Assembly (NCBI GenBank): GCA_027019175.1
Contig: JALUXB010000032.1
Span: forward strand, 1-63,300
Reading direction: 5' to 3'
Origin: Sulfurovum sp.
GTDB taxonomy: Bacteria > Campylobacterota > Campylobacteria > Campylobacterales > Sulfurovaceae
Length of the DNA: 63,300 bases
A model generated the notes under the pieces. The model did no database searches and had not been told where the DNA came from. It was given only the letters and a program-made list of their open reading frames with translations. Of the stretch, positions 56,765 to 63,300 are shown piece after piece. Each line of letters starts with the position of its first letter. Within the stretch, counting starts at the first letter, position 1. Both the position numbers and the translations under genes were made by a program.

Positions 56765-57334
56765 ATGGCGGAAAAAAACATGAATAATGTCGACCAGATC
56801 AGGGAGTTGATCTTTGGCCCCCAAATGAAAGAGTTTGAAGAAAAGTTCGACACTCTTGGTAAGACAGTCAAAGAGATCGAAAAGCGCATACTCAGCACAT
56901 TCCGTGAAGCACACAGCAAGTTGCAAAAAGAGACCGAACGCTCTCTCGAGGCGCTTGAACAGAAAGTAGACAACCTCGCCACTGCAACACAGAAAGAGCG
57001 CACAAAACTCAAAGAACTTATCGATACCACCGATGAAACGCTGCAAACACAGATTCACAATCAGAAAAATGAACTTTTGACAAAAATAAAGATCATGAAA
57101 GAGAACATTGACGATGAAAACCTGAAGATGAATGAAAACCTCAGGGAGATGAAAGAAGAGCTTGAAACATCTCTGAATGAAGGGTTGGCAAACCTCGGTC
57201 ATGACAAACTTTCACGTGACGCGATGGCGGGGATGCTACTGGATGTTGCTATGAAAATCCAGGGGACAGACGCAGGATCGATTTTGGATGTAGGATCCAT
57301 TTTGACAGAGGAGTCAAAACCTGAAACAAAGTGA
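56765..57334 (+). CDS. Coiled-coil protein, first gene of the Ras-like GTPase operon
   Basis: A 189-aa protein with AAGGAT upstream. Residues about 12-150 are almost wholly charged helix with heptads (MKEFEEKFDTLGKTVKEIEK, LEALEQKVDNLATATQKERT). The last 40 residues are shorter and less charged (AGMLLDVAMKIQGTDAGSIL). No signal or membrane segment is seen. Its 3' end overlaps the next gene by 14 bases if that starts at CTG. A scaffold or tether role next to the GTPase is inferred. Confidence 0.7.
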   Translation: MAEKNMNNVDQIRELIFGPQMKEFEEKFDTLGKTVKEIEKRILSTFREAHSKLQKETERSLEALEQKVDNLATATQKERTKLKELIDTTDETLQTQIHNQKNELLTKIKIMKENIDDENLKMNENLREMKEELETSLNEGLANLGHDKLSRDAMAGMLLDVAMKIQGTDAGSILDVGSILTEESKPETK

Positions 57335-59258
57335 CACAGAGCTTGAACAGCTGAAGTCACTGCTTCTGTCTGATGAGCTTAAACTACTTCAAAAACTGGC
57401 ATCAAAGGTTGAGCACCTTGAGTTTGAAACACTCAATGAAGAAGCGATCAAAAACAAGCTTCTTCCGCTTTTTGACGATGTACTGCTGACACGATTGCAG
57501 GAAAAAGACGAAGAGACGATCAGTATACTCGCCCGCTATCTCGCACAAATCATTTCCAAAAGTGCAACGCAAGATCCAAATGGACTTGAACAGGCTCTGC
57601 AAAGCATCATCTCTCCGGTAATCGCCAAGGAGATCTCTGAAAACAAAGACAAAATGATCGATGCGCTTTACCCCATCATGGGTGGTATGATCTCCAAGTA
57701 TGTCGCTCAGGCCATCAAAGAACTGATGGAGACCATCAACAAAAAAATTGAACAGGGATTTTCGGTTGAACGTTACAAACGTAAGCTCAAAGCAAAACTC
57801 AGCGGTGTGAGCGAAACCGAACTGCTGCTTGAAGAGAGTGCCGATGCACATATTCTGGCAATGTTCATTATCCATAAAGAGAGTGGACTGCTTATCAGTG
57901 AAGCACATACGGAAGAGAGCAACATCGGTGACCCACACATGGTTGCCTCCATGGCAAGCGCTATCAAAGACTTCATCAATGACTGGATATCCAACAACAA
58001 AGCAGAAAAAGAAGAAGTCCAGATACTCAGTTACGGGAAAGAGACACTCTACATAGAAAGTGCCGGCTCGGTCTACCTGATCGCCTTCCTTGACAGTGAC
58101 CCGGACTATGAAATGCGCTCGGACATCAACGATTTTTTTGCCTCAATTGTAAAACGTTATGCCGACTTTTTTCAAAGCTTCAACGGCGATGATGCAGCCA
58201 AAGAGGTACATGAACTTTCAAAAAAAATGTATGCATACCTCATTTCCCATAATGACCGGCAGCCCGATGGCAATAATAAAAAATCATTCAACCCGGCAAA
58301 GTGGGGCTTGATATTCCTGCTGTCGGCTTTGCTGTTTTATGTCGGATATCGTCTGAAAATATACTATGATATGAACATGCTGGAAAACCGTGTAACCGAA
58401 CAAACAGGAGAAATCGTTACCATAAAAAACGAGGAGGGTCACTATATACTCAAAGGTATTCTCAAAGAACCTTCCCATTTCAAAGCCATTCAGAACATTC
58501 TTTCACAGAGCCCGTATGCCAAGGAGATCGGTGTGGATCTTTCTCTCTCCGTAGGAGGTGTCAAAAAACTGATTGCACAGCAGAAAAAACAGCTTGAAGC
58601 ACAAAAAGAAATGCTGCTTAGGCTTAATAATGCATATCAGAAGGATTTACAGACTTTAAAACACCAGGTAGTACCCGAACTGGATACTCTGAAAAAAGAA
58701 CAAACCCAACTGAAAAAGTTACTTGAAAGCTACAAAAACGAAAAACGTAAATTACAACAGCTTATGGAACTGGAAAAAAATCTGTATGCAGCACTCGATC
58801 ATGCTTTTGCAAACAATCCCTACTATATTAAAAAGACCCACAACCTGAATTTTGCACCACTGCATCTCTTTGAGGTGGGGAAAGTCGAACCTACAGGTAC
58901 GAAGCTTCCACTTGTTACCGCTTCATTTAAAAAGTATCTGCATGTGCTTTTGCCATACAAACCCTACATCAAACAGATTCTCATTCTTTCATTCAGTGAT
59001 ACAAAAGGAAATGCCGTACATAATCAATTATTGACAGAGAAAAGAGCAAAAAATATGCTGTCTTATTTTTTGAAAGATCCTGCAATTGCCCATTCGCCCA
59101 TGCGTTCCCTTATTCAAACCAGAGGAGAAGGGGAGAAATTTCCTGTTATGGTCAACGGGCAGGAAGATATGAATGCCTCAAGAAGGATCGAAATTCAATT
59201 CACACTGGATCACAACAAAATCAACAGTATGATCAACCATTATTTGGAGAAACAATGA
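57321..59258 (+). CDS. Membrane protein with predicted longin/Roadblock-like N-terminal region and periplasmic OmpA-like domain
   Basis: About 645 aa if CTG 57321 is the start, 7 bases behind GGAG; no ATG, GTG or TTG occurs in frame before TTG 57495, which would cut off about 58 residues. N-terminal helices (about 1-165) precede a region at about 170-285 (DAHILAMFIIHKESGLLISE to INDFFASIVKRYADFF) that resembles longin/Roadblock folds. One membrane segment (about 328-345), a coiled coil (about 415-480) and a C-terminal OmpA-like domain (about 505-640, LSFSDTKGNAVHNQLLTEKR) follow. It could link a cytosolic GTPase to peptidoglycan. Confidence 0.7.
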   Translation: MKQSDTELEQLKSLLLSDELKLLQKLASKVEHLEFETLNEEAIKNKLLPLFDDVLLTRLQEKDEETISILARYLAQIISKSATQDPNGLEQALQSIISPVIAKEISENKDKMIDALYPIMGGMISKYVAQAIKELMETINKKIEQGFSVERYKRKLKAKLSGVSETELLLEESADAHILAMFIIHKESGLLISEAHTEESNIGDPHMVASMASAIKDFINDWISNNKAEKEEVQILSYGKETLYIESAGSVYLIAFLDSDPDYEMRSDINDFFASIVKRYADFFQSFNGDDAAKEVHELSKKMYAYLISHNDRQPDGNNKKSFNPAKWGLIFLLSALLFYVGYRLKIYYDMNMLENRVTEQTGEIVTIKNEEGHYILKGILKEPSHFKAIQNILSQSPYAKEIGVDLSLSVGGVKKLIAQQKKQLEAQKEMLLRLNNAYQKDLQTLKHQVVPELDTLKKEQTQLKKLLESYKNEKRKLQQLMELEKNLYAALDHAFANNPYYIKKTHNLNFAPLHLFEVGKVEPTGTKLPLVTASFKKYLHVLLPYKPYIKQILILSFSDTKGNAVHNQLLTEKRAKNMLSYFLKDPAIAHSPMRSLIQTRGEGEKFPVMVNGQEDMNASRRIEIQFTLDHNKINSMINHYLEKQ

Positions 59259-59761
59259 TATCTCGTAAAATTGTGCTCATAGGCGATTTTGCCACAGGGA
59301 AAACCAGTCTTATCCGACGCTTTGTGGACAACCAGTTCAGCGATACCTACCTGAGTACCATCGGCGTCAAAATATCCAAAAAGATCATACCGCTGGAAAA
59401 AACTACACTACAGGGGATGATCTGGGATATTGAAGGCGGTACGGAAACCAAACCCGTCAACAAAACATACCTCATAGGGGCACATGGTGCCATTTTGGTT
59501 GCGGACGGTACACGCTATGAAACACTGGAGCACATTGAAATGTACCGTGCACTTCTGCACAAAAACAATGCAAAGATCCCCCTTGTGCTGGTCATCAACA
59601 AATGTGACTGCCTTTCTGATGAAGCCCGTCATGCTATGACAGAAAAGGCAAAAACAATGTATGGAGATGGAATAAAAAACATTTTCCTTACATCTGCAAA
59701 AACAGGCGAAGGGGTGGAAGAGATGTTCTTTGCCATCGCTTCGGAAATAGTGGGTTCATAA
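59255..59761 (+). CDS. Ras/Rab-like small GTPase
   Basis: A 168-aa protein with all five GTPase motifs: P-loop GDFATGKT (10-17), switch I Thr35 in STIGVK, WDIEGG (Asp58 to Gly62), NKCD (115-118) and SAK (147-149). It is as close in layout to Rab proteins as to MglA. The residue equivalent to Ras Gln61 is Gly62, so intrinsic hydrolysis may be slow and a partner may be needed. No C-terminal lipidation cysteine is present. It overlaps the OmpA-like gene by 4 bases and the kinase by 1. Confidence 0.9.
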   Translation: MISRKIVLIGDFATGKTSLIRRFVDNQFSDTYLSTIGVKISKKIIPLEKTTLQGMIWDIEGGTETKPVNKTYLIGAHGAILVADGTRYETLEHIEMYRALLHKNNAKIPLVLVINKCDCLSDEARHAMTEKAKTMYGDGIKNIFLTSAKTGEGVEEMFFAIASEIVGS

Positions 59762-60957
59762 TGCATGTACAGGAAATACTGAAAGCGATCTACGACAACC
59801 ACCATTACGAATATCTGATTATTGACAGCAATATGAATATTGTTGAGTTTTCAGACAAAGTATTTGATTTTTGTGAAACAGAAAACAAAAACTGTGAACA
59901 GGTACCACTCGAAGATGCGGTCTATGAATTATGCGGTATGCAGGAGGAGATACGCCAAATTTTCCTGGGAAAAGAAAAAAAATTCACCCTGCCATATGTC
60001 TTCAAGGCTCCCGACCGCTACGTGCATATCCATATCAGCCCGGGACGCAGGCACAGTGTACCTGATGCAAACGGGTACCTGTACGAAACCGTGATCATCC
60101 TTTTTGAAGACATTACCCAGTTGGCGAAAATGCAACAACAGATGGTGCAAGAGGGGAATGAAAAAGCACTACTGTTAAAAACCATTTCTGAACAGAACCA
60201 TCAGCTGCAGCTTTTCAACGAAGAGATGCAGCGCCTTGTAGATGAAGAGATCAGAAAAAATCTTGAGAAGCAGAAAATGCTGGAGCTTCAGGAAAGGCAT
60301 TCCCAGATGGGAGAGATGATAAGCATGATCATCCATCAATGGAAACAGCCGCTGAATGCCATACAGCTTATTGCTCAGGTATTAAAGATCAAAACCGAAA
60401 ACAATACCTGTACACCAGAATTTCTGCTTGAAAAACTTGACGGTATCTTCAAACAGGTAAAGTTTATGGATCAAACCATCTATGTCTTCCAGAACTTTTT
60501 CAAACCTGCCAAAGAAAAAGTAAAATTCAATGTCTATGAAACACTTGAGTCGCTTCTTGAGCTCGTACGTTATGAATATGAATATAAACATATCCAAATC
60601 GTTTTGGAAGGGGAAAAAGACGTTATCGGATTTGGCTACCCCAACGAATTTACCCAGGTCATACTGACCTTAATGAAAAATGCGAAAGATGCGTTTGAAG
60701 AACACCCTTCAGACAATATGCAGATTACCCTTGAAGTCCGGTCGGAAAAGGGGAAAGCATGTATTTGTGTACGTGACAATGCAGGCGGTATTCCTGACGA
60801 CTTGATAGATGATATTTTTGAACTCTATGTAACAACAAAAGAGGACGGCACAGGACTGGGGCTGAACATTGCCAAGCGGGTCATTGAAAACAATATGAAC
60901 GGACGTATTACAGTACAAAATACCGAAGAGGGTGCAGAGTTCAGAATTTTGTTTTAG
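59761..60957 (+). CDS. Soluble PAS-type sensor histidine kinase
   Basis: A 398-aa protein with no membrane segment. A PAS-like domain (about 10-125) and a coiled coil (about 130-180) lead to the H box with His192 in IIHQWKQPLNAIQLI. ATPase boxes are LMKNAKDAF (N), DNAGGIPDDLID (G1) and GTGLGLNIAKRVI (G2). It starts at the last base of the GTPase stop. No response regulator is in the operon, so its target is elsewhere or it modifies the GTPase module. Confidence 0.87.
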   Translation: MHVQEILKAIYDNHHYEYLIIDSNMNIVEFSDKVFDFCETENKNCEQVPLEDAVYELCGMQEEIRQIFLGKEKKFTLPYVFKAPDRYVHIHISPGRRHSVPDANGYLYETVIILFEDITQLAKMQQQMVQEGNEKALLLKTISEQNHQLQLFNEEMQRLVDEEIRKNLEKQKMLELQERHSQMGEMISMIIHQWKQPLNAIQLIAQVLKIKTENNTCTPEFLLEKLDGIFKQVKFMDQTIYVFQNFFKPAKEKVKFNVYETLESLLELVRYEYEYKHIQIVLEGEKDVIGFGYPNEFTQVILTLMKNAKDAFEEHPSDNMQITLEVRSEKGKACICVRDNAGGIPDDLIDDIFELYVTTKEDGTGLGLNIAKRVIENNMNGRITVQNTEEGAEFRILF

Positions 60958-61650: not shown

Positions 61651-62463
61651 CTATTGAATATCTTCAAGCAGCATCGGTGTACCGATCGCTTTGAGGTTGG
61701 CATGGGTGTTGAGGAAATAGTCTTTCCAAAATGCAGTGAGACGTTCAAGGCTTTTGGCATCACGATAGGCATTTTTGCTACCCGTCATTCCCACTGCCAT
61801 CATGTAGACACGGGCATTGTCGAAGTCTGCCAGGAAACCGCTGTTTGCGACTTTGTGAAGCTCCTTTTTACGGTCTATCTTTTTGATGCCCCCTTTGTGG
61901 TAGAAGGAGGTAATGGCAGAATGCTCCAGACCGTCAGAGACAATGAGTACAATCTTCTCGCTCGCTTTGGAAGGTTTGACAACACGTTTTGAGAGGTCAT
62001 GCAGAGAACGGAAGATGTCCGAATGCGGCAGTTTTTTGTTTGTACCTTTAAGCACGCGTACCAGTGCTTTGGTTGCCTTTTTCTTGGCATAGCGGTACTG
62101 TCCGTTCATACAGGCTTTGTATTTTCGAAGTTTCTTTTTCGAAATATCATATTCGGAACGTTTTGCCAGCAGCGGTTCGACAAAGCCCTCGTAGGCAACA
62201 TCGGCATACTTGCCGTTGGCATTGGCAGAGAAGGAGGCAATCGTGACCGCATTGCCGTTTTTGATAAACTTCATCATATTCTTGTAAATGTAGATCATCA
62301 TCTTTTTGTCCAGCGGCGTAGTCTGGTCGATAAAGATGAAGAGCTCTTTGGAGGGGATATTGTCTTCAAGTGCGATGTCGAGTGCCTTATAGCAGCTTGG
62401 TACATCGTTGCGTGCAGCAAGCAGCGTGCCGAGTGTCAGCAGCATCAAAAAAATACGTTTCAT
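61651..62463 (-). CDS. Exported von Willebrand A-like protein
   Basis: A 270-aa protein with a signal peptide (MKRIFLMLLTLGTLLAA). A VWA-like start is seen in ELFIFIDQTTPLDKK (the DxSxS metal motif reads DQTTP), with a later IVLIVSDGLEHSAI strand. Rossmann-type VWA domains bind proteins through a metal site. It begins directly after the stop of the membrane protein upstream (TAAATG), so the two form a pair. It should act in the periplasm. Confidence 0.65.
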   Translation of the reverse strand: MKRIFLMLLTLGTLLAARNDVPSCYKALDIALEDNIPSKELFIFIDQTTPLDKKMMIYIYKNMMKFIKNGNAVTIASFSANANGKYADVAYEGFVEPLLAKRSEYDISKKKLRKYKACMNGQYRYAKKKATKALVRVLKGTNKKLPHSDIFRSLHDLSKRVVKPSKASEKIVLIVSDGLEHSAITSFYHKGGIKKIDRKKELHKVANSGFLADFDNARVYMMAVGMTGSKNAYRDAKSLERLTAFWKDYFLNTHANLKAIGTPMLLEDIQ

Positions 62464-63300
62464 TTACTTATCCTCGAATTCAAGATATTTTTTAAAAGTT
62501 CTGTCTTTGTTGTTACGCAGCAGCAGTGTCGTTTCTGCATCGGTACCGGTATTGTCATTGATAATGTTCATTTTATGCTGCAACTTCTGAAGCTGTCTTT
62601 GTGCCACTCTTGCAATATGTGTTTTGGCACGCTCATAATAGGAGAGGAAAGCTTTTTTGGTGCTGAAACCGCGCAGCAGATCATACGCTTCACGTGATTC
62701 TCTTCCGGCAAAGTCGTAGTGCATCCCGAAAAAGATACCCAGAATCTGAATGAAAACAAAGAGCAGTCCCAAAATCATAAAGGTTGCGTCTCCGCCACGC
62801 TGGTTGGTTTCATCTTCTATGTTTGCATCCGTTTGTTTCGAAGCAGCCGGCGAAGCTTTGCTTTCTTCATCGCCAAAGAGTGAAGAGAGATCCTCTTTTG
62901 TATCATCGCTGCCGCTGTCGCCAAAGAGTGCTCCTACATCGTCATCTCCCTTGGCATTAGTATCTCCAAACGGTGAGGCATCATCATTGAAGATATTCAT
63001 GGCACTCTCATGTGAAGAAGCAATCTCCTGGACGAGTACCTGATGGCGGATGTAGGTTGCCCCTACCGCTACAGCAATAATGAACGCCAGCGTCAGAATG
63101 GTTTTGGTGTAAGTGGTCTTGACCTTGTCGTTAACATCGAGCCGGTTAAGCATACGAATGTAATTGGGAGAATCTTTGTCATCGAATGTATTGTCAATGG
63201 TAATAAGTTTTTCATCCGGCTTGAGATCACGCCAGTTGGTACCGCCCGCATTGTCATTTTTGTACCATCGTCTGATCTTTTTGATGAGGGTATTTTTGTG
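62464..63300 (-). CDS. Membrane protein with acidic FGD-repeat loop (5' end beyond the window)
   Basis: The frame is open to the window edge, so the N-terminus is missing; 278 residues are visible. Two membrane segments (TILTLAFIIAVAVGATYI and MILGLLFVFIQILGIFFG) flank an acidic loop of about 100 residues with three FGD motifs (SPFGDTN, ALFGDSG, SLFGDEE). The C-terminal part is basic and helical (RVAQRQLQKLQHKMN). The VWA-like gene follows with no gap. I recognise no family. Confidence 0.7.
   Translation of the reverse strand, partial: HKNTLIKKIRRWYKNDNAGGTNWRDLKPDEKLITIDNTFDDKDSPNYIRMLNRLDVNDKVKTTYTKTILTLAFIIAVAVGATYIRHQVLVQEIASSHESAMNIFNDDASPFGDTNAKGDDDVGALFGDSGSDDTKEDLSSLFGDEESKASPAASKQTDANIEDETNQRGGDATFMILGLLFVFIQILGIFFGMHYDFAGRESREAYDLLRGFSTKKAFLSYYERAKTHIARVAQRQLQKLQHKMNIINDNTGTDAETTLLLRNNKDRTFKKYLEFEDK

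Follow-up and report, generated by a model that had tools for sequence, protein, structure and literature searches.

A predicted longin domain in the putatively wall-anchored neighbour of a group 1 Rup GTPase in Sulfurovum

What regulates a Ras-type switch that is missing its catalytic glutamine and stands beside no recognised partner protein? The question is raised by an operon in a 63,300-nucleotide stretch of Sulfurovum sp. DNA (the window), in which four genes are packed tightly at positions 56765-60957 of the forward strand, the strand of all coordinates below unless stated. They encode a coiled-coil protein, a protein with one transmembrane helix and an OmpA-like domain (hereafter the anchor), a Rab-like GTPase and a PAS histidine kinase. 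An earlier note made from the sequence alone missed that this arrangement is published as group 1 Rup, Rup being the bacterial GTPases most like Rab/Ran/Ras/Rho (Wuichet & Sogaard-Andersen 2014; PMC4316618). According to the part of that survey drawn on throughout this text, group 1 Rup lack the glutamine of the G3 motif and are encoded beside a coiled-coil gene and a gene for a protein with a domain of unknown function (DUF), a transmembrane segment and an OmpA domain, with an output gene for a histidine kinase or a diguanylate cyclase/phosphodiesterase carrying an invariant N-terminal glutamine. The same part gives the domain of the OmpA protein as of "unknown function", reports no MglB-type partner, does not have Campylobacterota among the named group 1 taxa, and describes no Rup as experimentally characterised in 2014; we found no experimental work on group 1 Rup systems in the open-access literature.

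Judged by its motifs and gene neighbourhood, the operon is a member of this class, sharing the four genes, the GTPase without catalytic glutamine and the output protein with an invariant N-terminal glutamine; the operon itself is therefore not new. What we add is the prediction of a longin domain for the DUF and of a PAS domain for the N-terminus of the output, together with the finding that the gene pairs form separable modules. With no MglB partner and no catalytic glutamine described in that part of the survey, the Rup regulator was an open question.

The GTPase (168 residues; 59255..59761) matched Pfam Ras with an E-value of 1.4e-29, its best PDB match was Rab1 (3.5e-23), and its P-loop, switch I, NKxD and SAK motifs are intact. 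Within the G3 motif, WDIEGG (59423..59440), the catalytic glutamine (Ras Q61) is replaced, and a glutamine stands at the residue after DxxG in 0/28 aligned GTPases; a partner is therefore probably required for hydrolysis. The sequence ends directly after the last helix, leaving no tail for lipidation, so that, by analogy with Ras-family biology, recruitment to the membrane would need a partner protein.

We modelled anchor residues 1-312 with AlphaFold2 from an alignment of 20 sequences. Residues 177-311 (57849..58253) were predicted to form a beta-beta-alpha-beta-beta-beta-alpha-alpha longin domain, with strands at 178-185, 191-196, 234-238, 241-248 and 251-257 and helices at 205-225, 263-279, 281-285 and 294-311; the predicted local distance difference test (pLDDT) score was 75-88 at residues 261-310. 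A Foldseek search of the PDB with the model returned 29 matches at E<=0.001, and the best 50 matches listed were all longin (Vamp7, Sec22b, Ykt6, AP sigma) or Roadblock (MglB, LAMTOR, dynein light chain) domains. VIA-align, with a quoted background Z of 7-8, superposed the model on Sec22b at Z 14.6 (126 residues, model residues 177-311, root-mean-square deviation 2.6 A), on the longin domains of the Rab guanine nucleotide exchange factors (GEFs) Mon1-Ccz1 and TRAPP at Z 10-11, and on MglB at Z 9.4. Per-column conservation agreed with the longin fold, both in the hydrophobic strands and in the invariant helix 205-222. Two C-terminal helices set longin apart from Roadblock (PMC10933270), and a longin topology with the extra C-terminal helix is present in the predicted model, at modest pLDDT. 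We accordingly describe residues ~177-311 as a predicted longin domain, an assignment that is strong on structure and unsupported on sequence, and that corresponds to the stretch (about residues 170-285) that the earlier note had read as longin/Roadblock. Within the open-access literature, where we found no paper connecting longin with Rup, assigning a longin fold to the published domain of unknown function appears to be new.

The distribution of the genes ties the anchor to the GTPase. Scanning GTDB species genomes for the membrane protein gave 19 loci, every one of them in Campylobacterota and the majority in Sulfurovum and its relatives; a further OmpA match was unrelated. The order coil-anchor-GTPase-output is kept in 16/16 loci that lie whole within their contigs, which, together with the gene limits and motifs, confirms the four overlapping genes described earlier. 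The same order occurs in 6 further genomes and on a Nostoc plasmid, well beyond Campylobacterota, and coil-anchor-GTPase is found on one plasmid each of Mesorhizobium and Rhizobium, the next gene in Mesorhizobium being annotated as a nucleotide cyclase; the genome sets in these comparisons may partly overlap, and the distribution outside Campylobacterota is based on plasmid records and PMC4316618. A phylum search with the full-length anchor recovered mostly other OmpA proteins (matches to residues ~350-646), and the cytoplasmic part alone was therefore used as the later query. Of 298 phylum genomes, 8 were matched by the Rup profile (E<1e-25), and the anchor profile picked out precisely these 8. 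Among 175 family genomes, the anchor was found in 38 and Rup in 39, with both in 35, the anchor only in 3, Rup only in 4 and neither in 133; most genomes with only one of the two are incomplete or highly fragmented. No relative was found in the viral contigs searched.

This association holds where the genes are separated. Five genomes (G403, G409, G395, G307 and G383) keep both pairs, with Rup and output on a different contig from, or at a site distant from, coil and anchor; Rup and PAS-output genes are adjacent wherever both are visible, often overlapping by 1-4 nt. Since co-occurrence persists even when they are unlinked, coil plus anchor and Rup plus PAS-output behave as two units inherited together, a modular picture that appears to be new within the open-access literature. 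The earlier note had proposed the anchor as the partner of the GTPase: genome-wide co-occurrence, unlinked genomes included, speaks for this, and neither of the two outcomes that the note had named as refuting it, a fold other than longin/Roadblock and a gene order without conservation, was obtained. The interpretation as a whole is partly supported, binding being what we infer. One locus (L002) has coil-anchor-Rup-kinase-Rup-cyclase in a row, apparently as in G394, and the genome of the window has a second, unlinked Rup plus PAS-diguanylate cyclase pair (L067; G000:C54:5539-7190) with no coil or anchor beside it; no second anchor was found in that genome. In a tree, the two cyclase-linked Rups cluster outside the kinase-linked clade. 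Two switches that differ in their outputs may share a single anchor.

The output protein of the window is a soluble PAS-HisKA-HATPase histidine kinase of 398 residues (59761..60957; HATPase_c E 3.5e-18) with the C-terminus ...GAEFRILF. Its N-terminal ~117 residues (59761..60111) were modelled as a PAS domain (pLDDT 78), and among the Foldseek matches listed all were PAS-type folds. The invariant Gln130 (60148..60150) lies on the helix after the PAS core (residues 119-151 in the model) and is kept in 18-20 sequences, kinase and cyclase outputs alike. In most Campylobacterota relatives this PAS N-terminus is followed by GGDEF cyclase domains; Nostoc has a hybrid kinase as its output, and Mesorhizobium an annotated adenylate/guanylate cyclase. 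The output is thus interchangeable, being a kinase here, a diguanylate cyclase in most relatives and a nucleotide cyclase in rhizobia, so that the "histidine kinase" of the earlier note is right for its own clade but not for most relatives. As a separate observation, unlinked Rup plus kinase pairs adjoin other kinase genes, namely a membrane histidine kinase (L105, L107) and a hybrid kinase-receiver (L107, L109), while at L113 two open reading frames of similar sizes to these kinase genes (sizes compared only) lie beside such a pair; these neighbours may be partners in a phosphorelay. In the genome of the window, the membrane kinase of L105/L107 has its closest match at G000:C74:18770-20098.

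We propose that the anchor is a wall-fixed longin platform that docks and regulates Rup, whose state sets the PAS output, and give this reading a probability of roughly 0.6. The anchor would be held to peptidoglycan by its OmpA domain and cross the inner membrane once, presenting its predicted longin domain in the cytoplasm as a docking and regulatory platform, possibly a GEF and/or a GTPase-activating protein (GAP), for the lipid-free GTPase; the coiled-coil protein would be its constant co-subunit. The longin domain would recruit Rup to the inner membrane and alter its nucleotide state. Rup, probably translated together with the PAS-output protein, would in its GTP or GDP form switch that output, meaning histidine autophosphorylation here and synthesis of cyclic di-GMP (c-di-GMP) in most relatives; signalling could also run the other way, from kinase to GTPase. 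The stimulus would be a property of the envelope, so that the position or tension of the cell wall would be relayed as a signal in the cytoplasm.

Several points weigh against this proposal. The mean pLDDT of the anchor model was 59.6, with residues 200-245 mostly <55; the cytoplasmic domain gave no match in Pfam, NCBIfam or PDB sequence searches; and hhalign against a seven-sequence Roadblock profile was in register and non-significant (P 0.015; controls 0.11-0.59). Many longin domains, such as those of SNAREs and AP subunits, are neither GEFs nor GAPs, and the Fisher p of 8e-29 for co-occurrence in the family ignores phylogeny. The low mean pLDDT and the non-significant profile comparison would fit a low-confidence model artefact, the region being another alpha/beta domain, for example a profilin-like one; since the best matches listed all come from one superfamily, the Z of 14.6 is well over background and the conservation pattern follows the fold, we hold such an artefact to be very improbable. 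A genuine longin domain might also serve dimerisation or face lipids, never touching the GTPase, the shared operon then reflecting a common pathway. Longin domains of SNAREs and coat proteins do perform other jobs (PMC10933270), but the near-perfect co-occurrence of anchor and Rup, unlinked genomes included, and the standing of the longin fold family as the classic small-GTPase platform (PMC10933270) make this quite unlikely.

Regulation could instead come from the PAS-output protein, its invariant glutamine being inserted in trans to complete the active site while the anchor only positions the complex, as PMC4316618 suggested for the glutamine in the part cited here. The invariance of Gln130 across kinase and cyclase outputs, the missing catalytic glutamine in 28/28 Rup and the adjacency of Rup and output even where no anchor is nearby are in keeping with this idea. 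In the model, however, Gln130 sits on a long helix past the PAS core and a DIT-type end, a site that would be typical of PAS-to-output transmission and not of a catalytic finger (a geometry argument only); this position weakens the 2014 active-site idea, to which we still give a small probability. We judge it improbable that the operon is an MglA-like polarity or motility system, with the GTPase marking a cell pole and the anchor tying it to the wall. The anchor domain is predicted to share the fold class of MglB, and a wall-bound partner would supply spatial information; the GTPase motifs, however, are of Rup and not MglA type (PMC4316618, same part), the outputs are kinases or cyclases, the genome of the window has no PF03259 (Roadblock) match, and the system is patchy in the family (38/175 genomes).

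Comparison with known systems helps to place the proposed platform. MglA/MglB of Myxococcus and Thermus likewise pair a Ras-like GTPase with a partner of Roadblock/longin fold, but MglB is a soluble Roadblock protein, whereas the candidate partner here is predicted to be of longin type, to span the membrane and to bind the wall, and the GTPase carries Rup motifs; these motifs and the absent PF03259 match led us to reject "MglA/MglB system" as a name. Actinobacterial conservons (CvnA-D) are also operons with a small GTPase, a Roadblock-fold protein, an unknown protein and a histidine kinase; they differ in that the GTPase is MglA-type, the membrane part is on the kinase, and no OmpA anchor is described. 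A conservon assignment, marked by an MglA-type GTPase, CvnC and a membrane kinase with an LPxR tail, was set aside, the locus having Rup motifs and a soluble PAS kinase. Eukaryotic Ragulator-Rag, TRAPP and Mon1-Ccz1 share the principle of a membrane-positioned Roadblock/longin platform for Rag/Rab GTPases, but are multi-subunit organelle complexes, whereas here a single protein, anchored to the wall and encoded next to a two-component or c-di-GMP output, would take that place.

The anchor gene most likely starts at CTG 57321 (645 residues; 57321..59258), with the Shine-Dalgarno sequence AGGAG (57309..57313) upstream at a 7-nt spacing and no in-frame ATG, GTG or TTG preceding the CTG. The architecture given in the earlier note stands, but its listed reading frame, from TTG 57495, is too short, since homology with relatives reaches further, to the CTG. 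Nearly all Sulfurovum-group relatives (L001-L019, L071-L094) have the CTG start, distant relatives use ATG, and in ~22 distinct genomes no in-frame ATG, GTG or TTG lies before the CTG. Because the CTG is conserved and overlaps the upstream gene, deliberate weak or coupled initiation is suggested. Residues 1-147 (57321..57761) are modelled as helical at low pLDDT and contain the highly conserved DALYPIMGxMISKYV; three anchors (L012, L014, L016) are missing ~50 residues of this region and keep the conserved segment and the longin domain. The single transmembrane helix (residues ~328-345; 58302..58355) was placed by eye on the hydrophobic stretch WGLIFLLSALLFYVGYRL. The OmpA-like domain (residues ~536-619; 58926..59177) was found with Pfam OmpA (E 1e-4) and the NCBIfam YiaD-type model (4e-8); since D560 and R575, the binding-loop Asp and Arg with a spacing of 15 residues, are invariant in 15 loci, we infer that it binds peptidoglycan. 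Distant relatives have an additional BON domain in the periplasmic part, and rhizobial anchors (L029:1924-4989, L030:1923-4988) are 1021 residues long, with a long, apparently repeated periplasmic segment before the OmpA domain.

The coiled-coil protein (189 residues; 56765..57334) is cytoplasmic, and a homolog lies upstream of every anchor whose locus is not cut by a contig end. Its alignment shows the conserved motifs (V/I)(D/E)QIR(D/E)L(I/L)FG at the N-terminus and LSRxxMAxML at the C-terminus. One motif, VDQIRELIFGPQ (56789..56824, including IRELIFGPQ), resembles LKSLLLSDEL at the anchor start (57345-57380), as it does in Nostoc and rhizobia; the profile score was 19.0, against <=15.7 for 200 column shuffles and up to 16.8 for unrelated anchor stretches, which is suggestive only of a possible shared docking motif. 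Overlaps within the operon are 14 nt (coil/anchor), 4 nt (anchor/GTPase) and 1 nt (GTPase/kinase), and a promoter/terminator scan gave no excess over shuffles. The flanking pyrF (upstream) and uracil-DNA glycosylase gene (downstream, opposite strand) are outside the four-gene unit. Two further minus-strand genes downstream (61651-63153), the first showing a weak VWA-type match in one case and a predicted membrane region in the other, reappear beside the operon in L004 (5671-7843).

The predicted longin domain in a constant neighbour provides the first concrete, testable candidate partner or regulator for group 1 Rup. If the proposal is true, it would reveal a route by which a wall-anchored protein could connect a Ras-type switch to two-component and c-di-GMP signalling, the longin platform carrying the state of the envelope into interchangeable kinase or cyclic-nucleotide outputs. 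We put forward only tentatively, at somewhat short of even odds, that bacteria have here a dedicated longin platform for a Rab-like GTPase, a wall-tethered single protein with a role like that of Ragulator, TRAPP or Mon1-Ccz1 for Rag/Rab; if so, the longin-Rab pairing would extend beyond archaea and eukaryotes, into bacteria.

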